Shown here: one piece after another, positions 13,929 through 52,920 of the stretch
Position numbering within the stretch: the first letter of the stretch is position 1
Layout of the letters: the number at the start of each line of letters is the position of its first letter
Assembly: GCA_033220425.1 (NCBI GenBank)
Contig: CM065653.1
Coordinates: forward strand, 1,674,001 to 1,738,000
Origin: Lepraria neglecta
Taxonomy: Eukaryota; Ascomycota; Lecanoromycetes; Lecanorales; Stereocaulaceae
Length of the DNA stretch: 64,000 nt
Reading direction: 5' to 3'
The notes under the pieces: generated by a model
What the model was told of the DNA's origin: nothing
Database searches by the model: none
Seen by the model: the letters and a program-made list of their open reading frames with translations, nothing else
Made by a program: the position numbers and the translations under genes

Positions 13929-14701
13929 GTTGACTGTTGGAGAAGGAGCATTAACCAGCTGTGAAGAATTGGGTCAAGAGCTGAGTTTGGGGGATTCAGT
14001 AAGCTGATTAGGCTTCCCAATTTGTTCATTTGACTCGAAGGATGTCTGTGTAACTGCGTAGGCGGCCTCTAAGTATAGTACACGACATTGGGGCAGGACA
14101 AAGCATTTAGATGGCCAAGCCTCTCCGTTGTTGTTTGAGACTCAGCCTTGCCCGGTGAGCTGCTTGCACCGGGGTTTTGAGCTCCACCGTTTGTTTACTC
14201 TCCGGGGTTTACGAGCAAGGAAAGGTTTACTTTTTTGCTCTGCTTGAACAGTAAAACATTAATTCATCGCTCGCCTGGAGTAGGAGCAGTTCAATACCTA
14301 CAGGTTTCGCAGTTAATATTGCCTTTCGAGGGAATAAATTTGAGCCAAAAGTAGGACAAGAAAAGCTCTCTGGAAGCAGATTTTCTAGCAAAAGACGGGC
14401 CTCAAAAGCAGAGTATGGGGGGCAAAAGCCTATCTGGGAGCAGAACCTGTGCCAAAATATAGGTCTCGGGAGCAGTGAATGGACGAATTGGGGGCCATAG
14501 CCCTGAAAGCAGCACTTCTTCCGTGCTTTTCTGAGCTCGCATTCCTGGAATCGCTGCTCGCAGCATGCAAATCCACTACTCTCTGCACTACTTGAGTTGA
14601 ATCCTCGTCTCCTTAGGTTCTTCGCGAGCAGCAAAATTAACACGACCTCCGTTAACGACCTACAGACAGCAAGTATTGCTGCCCTTCGGAGACCAATCGC
14701 C
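13929..14701. other. Divergent intergenic region holding an introner-like repeat
   Basis: 773 bp between the Sel1 gene (minus) and the frame-broken IPPEIRN gene (plus). The middle is occupied by repeat copy A (14298-14590). The rest should contain the two promoters; a CT-rich stretch precedes the Sel1 start. Confidence 0.5.
14298..14590 (-). repeat. Introner-like repeat, copy A
   Basis: Read on the minus strand, it begins near TAGTGCA (14590) and ends AATATTAACTGCGAAACC followed by TGTAG (14298). Inside are alternating half-units of about 32 bp: one resembling CTCCCGAGAC...TTTTGGCAC and one resembling CTCCCAGA...CTTTTGCCCCCC. The same order and the same 3' end occur in copy C (52603-52920), and the internal and 3' parts also match copy B (21753-21976). 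No gene is recognised around this copy, so whether it is spliced is unknown. Confidence 0.65.
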
Positions 14702-20734: not shown

Positions 20735-22658
20735 CTAATCCTCAAAATCCCCAACCTCCCTCTCAGGCAACAAAACATTCCTCGGCACACCCTCAAAACT
20801 CCGATCCCACTGCCACCTCTTCCTCTCTTCCTCCGCCAACTCGCCCTTAAGCATCTGGACCACATACTCGCCGATGATCGGAAGGAATTTCCAGCCCTTT
20901 GAGAAAAGCTATTAGTAAATGCGCTGAGAAGGGTGAAGTTTCAGAGAGTTATACTTACGTGAAAGGACCCTGCAGTGGCTATGTAGAGGTTCTGACAACG
21001 TGGGTGGGGGGTGATATACCTAAAGTAGGCGAAGGTTAGTGAATAGGCGCCGAGAGTGTGGGTGTAGGCCCGCAGGTGGTGAAATGGCTTGGGATGGGGC
21101 GCTTTGCAAGATGATATCTTTGGGATTCAAACTCCACCAGCCAGTATACCAGGGCTTATTATCCACCGCTTGGGTCGGACAAGTGCTATTTGTAGATGGA
21201 AAGGAGCTCCAAGCATGGATTTTGGAGTTTCGAACGTGCCAAAGTTGGAGTGTATTTCCAATTTCTCTTGTCATTTCGCGAGACAGTTGAGGTCCCAGCT
21301 TACCAATTATTGTCGGGTGTGACCCCATCCCTAAGCCCCAATCAGCACTAGATGAGCAAGCATGCCAAGGAGGTTACGGGTGAATACCAGCAAAACCGCA
21401 TATCATCAACTTTCAACCCCTCAATTTTCTTGCCATAGATACCTTTCATGACAGTGTCAATCTCCTTTTTGATGCTAGCTGGCATATTTTCTGGTGTGGT
21501 CCATTGGCTCCTATCCGTACTCGTGAACGGAATCGAGATCCTTTGACCAGAAGCAGGATGCTCGACCGTATGCTTGAAGGGCATATCACGGATGAATTTG
21601 AGTTGGTTTTTCGGCGTCGGTGGCATCGTCTCACCTTGGGTCTTATTCGCATCGAGTACGAAGGCTGGAGCATCCTTGAACTTCTCTACTTGCTCAGCGT
21701 TGAGGTTCACAGCTGCTTCGCAGACGCCACAAGCGGTGATTCTGTTGCCGACCTATGGATTTAGGAGTCAGCGTTACCCTGTGCGGGAAGAGGCTTGAGC
21801 TAGAAGTTGGGGCAGGAAAGGCTGGCTTGGAGCGGACTTCTGTCTAGAAGACAAGTCTCGGGAGTAGATAATAGGGCATAAATGTCTGTCATCGAGTATG
21901 GTTGGTGCTAAAAGACATATCTTAAGAGCCATAAATGGAGGGATTTGCTGGCAATGATCCAGCAAATTGCACTCACTTGCAATTCAGGCTGGGTCGGCGC
22001 ACTATCTGCTATAAGTTTCGCTGTGTATGCTCCCGTGCTCAAGATGGTCTTTTCCGCCGTAAAGGTCCTACCATCTTCAGTACGAATCCCCGTACAAGCC
22101 CCATCTTTTAGAATTAGATTTGCAACATTGGCGGTAATGCAATTGACACCGTTCTCCATGACAGCATCAAGTGTGTATTTCAATGCCGTTGCGGCTTCTG
22201 CCCAGCCTGACGATGGGTTCCAGAGGATGTTTTCCACATCAGTCAAGTCGGCATCGGCGTAGATTCCATTGAATCTGGTTTTCAGCTCTTCTGGCTTGAA
22301 TAACTCAGCTCCGACGTCAACTCCCAGCTCTTTGTAATTATCAAAGATCTTGTCGACTAGGTCTGCATGGTTGTCCGTTGCTTTTAGTAGGCCACTCTGA
22401 TGGTACCACATTTCGAACAACGGATCTGTTCGCCATCGTTCAAGCGCCTTCAAGCCTAATTTGCAGTAGAAAATATCCCCATAGTCTGAGCGAACTACTT
22501 TGTTGATATCATGTGAGGCAGCGATGGGGGCAGGGGTATGGAGCCCTGTCTACCAGTATGATCGTTGGTGCTGGTCTCTGCCGGGACAGATATAAGGCGG
22601 TGGAAGCCCCAAAGACCCCTGCACCAGTAATGATGTAGGATGATGCTAATGCGGGCAT
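20735..22658 (-). CDS. FAD-dependent amine oxidase (DAO fold; sarcosine / fructosyl amino acid oxidase-like)
   Basis: Exons on the minus strand: 22658-21977, 21752-21388, 21330-21304 (27 nt), 21019-20959 and 20896-20735. The N-terminus has the dinucleotide-binding motif ITGAGVFGASTALYLSRQ and an acidic strand end (IILVDRAPYP). Later blocks are DPLFEMWYHQSGLLKATDN, NPSSGWAEAATALKYTLDAV, TAEKTILSTGAYTAKLI, and the C-terminal DAO block TAGSFHGWKFLPIIGEYVVQ, which carries the flavin-contacting region. Such enzymes oxidise secondary amines such as sarcosine, pipecolate or fructosyl amino acids and release hydrogen peroxide. One extra base in a run of five C (plus-strand G at 22526-22530) shifts the frame between APYPCP and AASHDINK; exon 1 is 682 nt, one more than a phase-correct length. 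It is either a base-call error or a broken gene. The 224-nt first intron is a copy of the repeat family. Confidence 0.82.
21753..21976 (-). repeat. Introner-like repeat, copy B (occupies an intron exactly)
   Basis: The whole first intron of the amine oxidase gene, from donor GTGAGTGC to acceptor ATCCATAG. It starts with AGTGCAATTT, as copy C does. An 8-bp inverted repeat follows (TTTGCTGG at 44-51 and CCAGCAAA at 59-66 within 21900-21966, with a 7-nt loop). Next come the alternating half-units (ATATGTCTTTTAGCACCAAC; GACTTGTCTTCTAG) and the shared 3' end with a branch-like GCTGAC. Removing it leaves the flanking codons in phase 0 (PELQ / VGNRITACG). Confidence 0.75.
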
Positions 22659-52602: not shown

Positions 52603-52920
52603 TAGTGCAATTTTCCAGTTCCATTGCTTCTCATTCCATCTTGTTACTGCTCCTGAGACATGTCTTTTGGCATTAATTCTGGCTCCCAGACAGCTTTAAA
52701 TCCCCATTCTCCACTCCTGAGACTTGTTTCTGCGCACGGACTATGCTTCAAGATGCACTTTTATCCCCCAAGGCCTACTCTCGAGAGATGTCTTTTGGCA
52801 CGAACCATGCCTCTGGACAGCTTTTTGTCTCCCGCCCTTTGCTCCCGGGACGGGTTTTATCGTCCATTTTTGGCCCAAATTCAGTTCAACGAAGGGTAAT
52901 ATTGACTTCGAAATTTACAG
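52603..52920 (+). repeat. Introner-like repeat, copy C
   Basis: Begins with TAGTGCAATTTT and ends TAATATTGACTTCGAAATTT followed by ACAG. Inside, the half-unit starting TCCTGAGAC / TCTCGAGAG / TCCCGGGAC recurs at 52651, 52715, 52779 and 52842 (64-bp period). It alternates with a second half-unit resembling CCAGACAGCTTT. Both ends match the other copies. The 3' end reads like a branch point (TATTGAC) and acceptor (TTTACAG), but no flanking gene is recognised. Confidence 0.7.

Follow-up and report, generated by a model that had tools for sequence, protein, structure and literature searches.

The 224-nt intron of an amine oxidase gene in a lichen fungus (copy A) is almost certainly a member of an introner superfamily, that is, of spliceosomal introns that have copied themselves from GT to AG. 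It lies in the 64-kb window, as the whole stretch of DNA analysed is called here, and its features are collected in Table 1 with those of two related copies. The coordinates and splice sites assigned to it in a preliminary description of this DNA are right: the intron reads on the minus strand from GTGAGT at 21976 to TAG at 21753, and its predicted removal joins PELQ in frame to VGNRI within a conserved enzyme. The 8-bp inverted repeat TTTGCTGG/CCAGCAAA described near the donor is also present and pairs in the predicted fold. The CTGAC close to the acceptor is the presumed branch point, as it matches CTRAC, the fungal branch-point consensus. Tandem Repeats Finder called no array at the copy A intron; its two half-units are visible against the family consensus, to which they align over 21929–21856 and 21867–21808.

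Table 1. Introner copies in the window and features of the amine oxidase intron and its host gene.
Feature	Position	Strand	Basis
Introner copy A (subfamily I), 224-nt intron	21753..21976	minus	profile envelope and in-phase junction
5' splice site GTGAGT, start of element	21971..21976	minus	sequence
3' splice site TAG, end of element	21753..21755	minus	sequence, profile envelope
Family 3' core GCTGACTCCTAAAT (1 mismatch) with presumed branch point CTGAC	21759..21772	minus	
Pair of diverged half-units, ~64-nt tandem repeat	21808..21929	minus	aligned to family consensus
Local inverted repeat TTTGCTGG / CCAGCAAA near donor	21944..21966	minus	sequence; paired in predicted fold
Exon 5' of intron, FAD-dependent amine oxidase	21977..22549	minus	open frame 21908-22549, homologues, Pfam
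Open frame 3' of intron, amine oxidase gene	21348..21752	minus	open frame
Introner copy C (subfamily I), with acceptor but lacking a canonical donor by pattern	14298..14517	minus	profile
Introner copy B (subfamily I), with acceptor but lacking a canonical donor by pattern	52604..52920	plus	profile

The product of the host gene is an FAD-dependent oxidoreductase (Pfam DAO), and part of its homologues are named sarcosine or pipecolate oxidase. The best named homologues come from Alectoria sarmentosa (72%) and Lecanora helva (68%), and those of a second gene from Puttea exsequens, L. helva and Psora testacea. Alectoria and Puttea are classified in Lecanoromycetes, Lecanorales. The nearest named homologues are thus lichen fungi of the Lecanorales, which makes the host very likely a lichen-forming member of this order, and the Dothideomycete frame first given to the intron is not supported. 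The N-terminal part of the amine oxidase (approximately 22510–22658) is out of frame with the rest, with P0011-like relatives being continuous there; the break is either a frameshift or an assembly error.

Within the window, a blastn search with the intron matched the copy at 52.6 kb (copy B, E = 2e-5). A profile HMM, made from 10 copies outside the window to avoid circularity, gave four matches at three places: 14517–14298 (copy C, E = 4e-39), copy A (envelope 21976–21753, E = 3e-28) and two pieces within 52603–52920 (copy B, E = 7e-28 and 4e-20), with zero profile matches in 20 first-order Markov control windows. The envelope of copy A equals the intron base for base, in agreement with the original claim that the ends of the element are the splice sites. 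The words said to link the three copies held in part: AGTGCAATTT is exact in copy A and the 52.6-kb copy only, the 14.3-kb copy having AGTGCT there, and the internal words TGTCTTTTAGCAC and GAGACTTGTCTTCT are exact only in copy A, with near versions in the other copies. The 14-nt 3' core taken alone is not significant in the window (five matches vs. 2.5 expected, and 11 of 100 shuffled windows reach five), and Rfam matched neither the window nor any of six loci. Copies B and C both lie outside identified coding exons. A same-strand gene that is Sel1-like by eye lies downstream of copy C, with its ATG some 370 nt from the end of the copy; copy C may be a relic or an intron of a 5' UTR.

The genome searched comprised 42.0 Mb in 11 contigs. 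The 224-nt intron used directly as a query matched itself only. The core RGYAAYRYTRACTCCGAAAT, allowing up to two mismatches, gave 188 matches vs. 4 for the reversed pattern (places were taken for the first 100 listed), the 3' pattern RGYRAYRYTRACTYCGAAATCTGCAG with up to three mismatches gave 71 vs. 0, and the core RYTRACTCCGAAAT gave 87 vs. 3. A consensus of five copies produced 54 matches at 38 candidate places, a lower bound because copy A is not among them. Copy A belongs, as had been proposed, to an introner family with further intronic copies in the genome. These searches showed its family to be one branch of a larger group, in which at least five subfamilies were distinguished. Members of subfamily I are bounded by GTAAGTGCA...CTGCAG and differ in how many ~64-nt units they contain. 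Subfamily II is ~147 nt long, from GTACGTATTTTCGGAGTC to GACTCCGAAATCTTTATCTAG, with 28 matches from 18 places and up to 96% identity between two genes, and subfamily III is ~157 nt long, from GTACGTACATTTCGGAGTC to GACTCCGAAATGTGCGCAG, with 26 matches. Introns similar over their whole length, lodged in several unrelated genes, the defining property of introners, are found in the alignments of II (17 copies) and III; alignments A3 and A4 each comprise 15 of 17 copies. Of the 87 RYTRACTCCGAAAT core matches, 39 fall by position in subfamilies I–III and 48 outside. A second sample of 11 stretches holding 12 of these 48 matches had donor and acceptor, chosen by eye, in all 12. Two of its copies (L094, L103) resemble subfamily III, four form subfamily IV (GTACGTTATCC...CATTCAG and close forms), two of 113 nt form subfamily V (GTAAGGCAC...GTGCTAG or GTTCTAG), and four were placed in no subfamily.

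The consensus 3' ends match one another in a three-sequence comparison (I–II and I–III, E = 2e-6; II–III, E = 7e-4), and similarity among the three consensus forms is weaker away from the 3' ends. The internal tandem architecture, offered in the preliminary description as a possible mark of the whole family, is restricted to subfamily I, the interior of II and III being inverted and forming a hairpin. A GACATGT word close to the palindrome AGACATGTCT occurs in all three consensus interiors; it belongs to a long inverted repeat in II and III and to direct tandem units in I, a difference that looks like the outcome of a rearrangement between the two forms. Beside the main copy, several additional subfamily I pieces were seen at L039 (3861–4344) and L047 (2386–3716), with the extra pieces of L039 oriented opposite to the intron copy.

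Canonical donor and acceptor sites are present in 42 of the 50 examined copies of subfamilies I–III. The eight copies in which a splice site was missed by pattern are L078, L088, L036, L049, L055, L059 and copies B and C; L036 was taken by hand with a GAG acceptor. When the best pairs of flanking open frames of the 42 copies were compared, the in-phase pair was longer than the out-of-phase pair in 25, tied in 8 and shorter in 9, and 25/42 exceeds the one third expected by chance (p = 4e-4). By subfamily, the in-phase frame was longer in 7/10 copies of I, 7/16 of II and 11/16 of III, the excess in II by itself being weak; the second sample gave 10/12. Among 19 predicted spliced proteins (from 18 of the 42 copies, plus L036), a Pfam domain spans the junction in 15, including two below the Pfam cut-off (L066, L062) and one that crosses it by a few residues only (L047). 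The Pfam match of L065 ends at the junction, and L061, L036 and L067 matched no Pfam family. The hosts include a helicase (L090), an M49 peptidase (L085), a sirtuin (L087), a multicopper oxidase (L073), an enoyl-CoA hydratase (L068), a CRAL/TRIO protein (L038) and MFS transporters (L093, L066). From their appearance by eye, L061 is presumably a Bre2/Ash2-like protein, and L102 one that we take to resemble cryptochrome. In 23 clear cases, phases 0, 1 and 2 are represented by 11, 5 and 7 introns, and the lengths modulo 3 are distributed 9/7/7. At two loci, a pair of family introns flanks one open frame (L081, 408–564 and 773–928 on the minus strand; L098, 214–348 and 757–911), and each of these loci probably represents a single gene.

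The history of three insertions was followed through homologues, where intron absence was judged from open frames in protein records. For copy A, 120 of 141 homologues were listed: 114 are continuous across the junction, four read into the intron and two end earlier. The four are 96, 90, 84 and 84% identical; P0011 has VSAISWVIASKSLHLRLLRYVF where the window has VSAICWIIASKSLHLWLLRYVF and therefore carries the same intron, and the inspected sequence of P0034 likewise reads into copy A. With the intron absent from 114 of the 120 listed homologues, the notion of an old shared intron is refuted. In a 50-row tree built from the exon 5' of the intron, which takes in the window together with 49 of the 120 homologues listed, a single change accounts for the presence of the intron; support for the five-row clade is 94/44 only and for the inner three rows 99/94. 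The subfamily II copy L062 is absent from all 120 homologues listed. The subfamily III copy L085 is absent from 119 listed homologues (one of them truncated before the junction) and present in one, P0359, which is 96% identical and reads into the intron, with 15 residues equal to the translation of the intron start. Judged by these comparisons, all three insertions are gains, two of them common to near relatives only and that of L062 to no listed homologue.

In the amine oxidase, most near relatives end the open frame at TQG, codon 269 (TQG|ETMPP), which suggests that they carry an intron there. The window gene is continuous at codon 269, 120 nt downstream of the gained intron within the open frame 21348–21752. 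The same gene therefore combines one gain with one apparent loss, and a cDNA recombined into the gene would give both together. Loss of a neighbouring intron was considered as a general rule and rejected: the amine oxidase shows it, and L085 is not clear. Two relatives of the L085 host, P0275 and P0317, both stop at peptidase query codon 144. This points to an intron at that position, lacking in the present genome and perhaps gained by the relatives themselves.

The ends of the elements are sharply defined in subfamilies II and III, with homology ending at GT and AG and the exon flanks unrelated. A near-terminal inverted repeat (TTTCGGAGTC/GACTCCGAAA) forms the outer stem in most copies of both subfamilies, matching at 16/19 positions by eye in III, and their interior is palindromic. 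Compared with 60 shuffles of each intron, the mean folding z was −4.35 in II (16 introns), −3.13 in III (16) and −0.41 in I (10), with z ≤ −2 reached by 14/16, 13/16 and 0/10 introns, respectively. The z of copy A was 0.00; it is a diverged subfamily I member that folds no better than shuffled sequence. The stable structure that the preliminary description mentions for introner-like elements of Dothideomycetes is thus predicted for most introns of II and III and for none of I. The two ends of the 50 copies pair with a mean of −13.9 kcal/mol vs. −8.7 for shuffled ends and −12.8 for a random partner end (p = 0.0014), a partner end from the same subfamily being as good as the own one (p = 0.29). 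When five subfamily-matched consensus end pairs were permuted, the true arrangement ranked first among 120. Pairing of ends in subfamily IV showed no excess over shuffled ends, and copies of subfamily I, copy A among them, have a weak stem. For subfamily II, 5' ends paired more strongly with the 3' ends of other subfamilies (−13.5) than with their own (−10.7), and in subfamily I own and foreign pairings are about equal. The case for co-evolution of the two ends is only suggestive.

Compensatory changes were rejected as a sign that the RNA structure is maintained, such changes being seen in just 1/17 predicted pairs in II and 5/22 in III, and in the outer stem once in II and never in III. The outer stem is nearly invariant across copies, and most departures from it disrupt a pair; it may be needed for spread and not retained after insertion. 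Target-site duplications were sought under three models, six lengths and four groupings (72 cells): three cells fell below 0.05, all from one nested comparison in II, and none is convincing. AG precedes the donor in 3/42 copies, and there is therefore no proto-splice-site preference. The exon sites of II and III appear free of bias. Subfamily I prefers G, T and G after the insertion (9, 7 and 7 of 10), a pattern that allows a possible 2-bp GT duplication indistinguishable from site preference.

The most likely route of spread runs through RNA, by reverse splicing of the excised intron, a reading that we hold to be probable by a modest measure. The presumed branch point and the two splice sites all lie inside the element, so that each new copy can be removed by splicing and the protein is left unchanged. 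In the best-preserved subfamilies, the near-terminal stem (UUUCGGAGUC with GACUCCGAAA) would tie the ends of the excised intron RNA together; reverse splicing would then put this RNA into another transcript, which would be reverse transcribed and recombined into the gene. The comparisons above establish the family and its boundaries, the excess of in-phase junctions, the gains and the complementarity near the ends; from them we infer splicing, an RNA intermediate and a part for the stem in spread. The RNA route is favoured because the elements are whole introns with exact ends that leave the protein unchanged and no clear duplication, and it is supported by near-terminal pairing in excess of shuffled ends and by the hairpins of II and III; the codon-269 intron missing from the window amine oxidase adds, as one case, a hint of cDNA. 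Against it speak the few compensatory changes, the stem being weak in I and without excess in IV, the fact that inverted repeats are also typical of DNA transposons, and the 2-bp GT duplication that subfamily I may hold; copies B and C, lacking a canonical donor, also count against it. Reverse splicing is expected to favour AG|G exon sites, and the absence of an exon preference in II and III is thus neutral or slightly unfavourable to it.

Movement as DNA, by non-autonomous TIR transposons (MITE-like introners) that a transposase would mobilise with no or a 2-bp duplication, is rather unlikely. It would account for the inverted repeats near both ends and the palindromic interior of II and III, for copies B and C outside identified coding exons, and for the GTG that follows subfamily I copies, which could mask a 2-bp GT duplication; according to the available part of a survey, most non-ascomycete introner families have TSDs or TIRs (PMC9860276). 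Opposed to this are the internal position of both splice sites, with homology ending at GT and AG, and the absence of a duplication in II and III save one weak nested signal in II (3/72 cells). Capture at chromosome breaks, where the intact RNA of the excised intron, or DNA copied from it, would be joined into the break, is improbable. The model was proposed for Xylariales twin introns (PMC12403724, as far as its available part goes), whose near-terminal stem resembles the present one, and it fits the apparently unbiased exon sites of II and III; however, the insertions appear exact at the three sites for which homologues were compared, and break repair would presumably often add or lose bases. 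That copy A is an ordinary intron resembling the repeats by chance is scarcely credible: the insignificance of the core in the window (5 vs. 2.5 expected, reached by 11/100 shuffles) and the direct genome search matching only itself would agree with it, but not the outside-copy profile match (E = 3e-28) at the exact intron boundaries or the 188 vs. 4 core matches in the genome.

Introner-like elements (ILEs) of Dothideomycetes were reportedly described by van der Burgt et al. in 2012. As far as the accessible portion of PMC4457414 describes those ILEs, the present introns share three traits with them: spliceosomal introns of similar sequence recur in unrelated genes within a single ascomycete genome, they form several families of unequal age, and there are recent gains at intron-less positions. 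They differ from them, going by the descriptions in the same portion, in belonging to another fungal class and in having near-terminal inverted repeats and, in subfamily I, a tandem-unit interior.

A closer parallel is found in the near-terminally symmetrical [D1,2] sister stwintrons of Hypoxylaceae and Xylariaceae, i.e., Xylariales twin introns for which the parts available of PMC8469720 and PMC12403724 report 10-nt near-terminal repeats, absence of duplications, unbiased sites and what their authors regard as circumstantial evidence for an RNA intermediate. Within the limits of these sources, the likeness extends to near-terminal inverted repeats of ~10 nt that could hold the intron RNA closed (here in II and III), to exact insertion with neither duplications nor exon bias (in II and III), and to the absence of phase bias (11/5/7 in the 23 clear cases here). 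On the same partial basis, the two differ in the repeat itself, which is UUUCGGAGUC/GACUCCGAAA here and GUAUAAAAAC with its partner there (PMC12403724, by eye), and in its place, the 3' repeat overlapping the presumed branch point here and lying between branch point and acceptor there; moreover, the introns described here appear canonical rather than nested, the aligned copies starting with an intact donor. Transposon-type introners with TIRs and/or TSDs, to judge from the available part of the survey by Gozashti et al. (2022; PMC9860276), have in common with the present ones near-end inverted repeats and intronic copies in many genes, and are unlike them in that no convincing duplication, and no splice site derived from one, was found here. 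That same part of the survey argues that most introners move as DNA and treats the ascomycete introner families as the outlier, with neither terminal repeats (TIRs) nor duplications (TSDs).

The near-terminal inverted repeat and hairpin fold of most subfamily II and III introners are new here. The nearest published match for such repeats in the literature found is that of the Xylariales twin introns, in the parts of those papers available, and a search by title and abstract, with most subscription papers outside its coverage, returned no report of introners in lichen fungi. Intron gain in fungi is an unsolved question, and repeats near introner ends may bear on its mechanism. We tentatively suggest, with somewhat more doubt than confidence, that a near-terminal repeat closing the intron is a convergent hallmark, with separate origins in the twin introns of Xylariales and the canonical introns of this lichen fungus: it would stay complementary across diverging, spreading subfamilies, decay once inserted and make an ordinary intron mobile via an RNA copy. 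In the lichen fungus, several introner subfamilies of unequal age show repeats near their ends but no duplication that convinces, and individual copies are present in some relatives and absent from others. This provides empty sites, an age series and a testable structural hypothesis.
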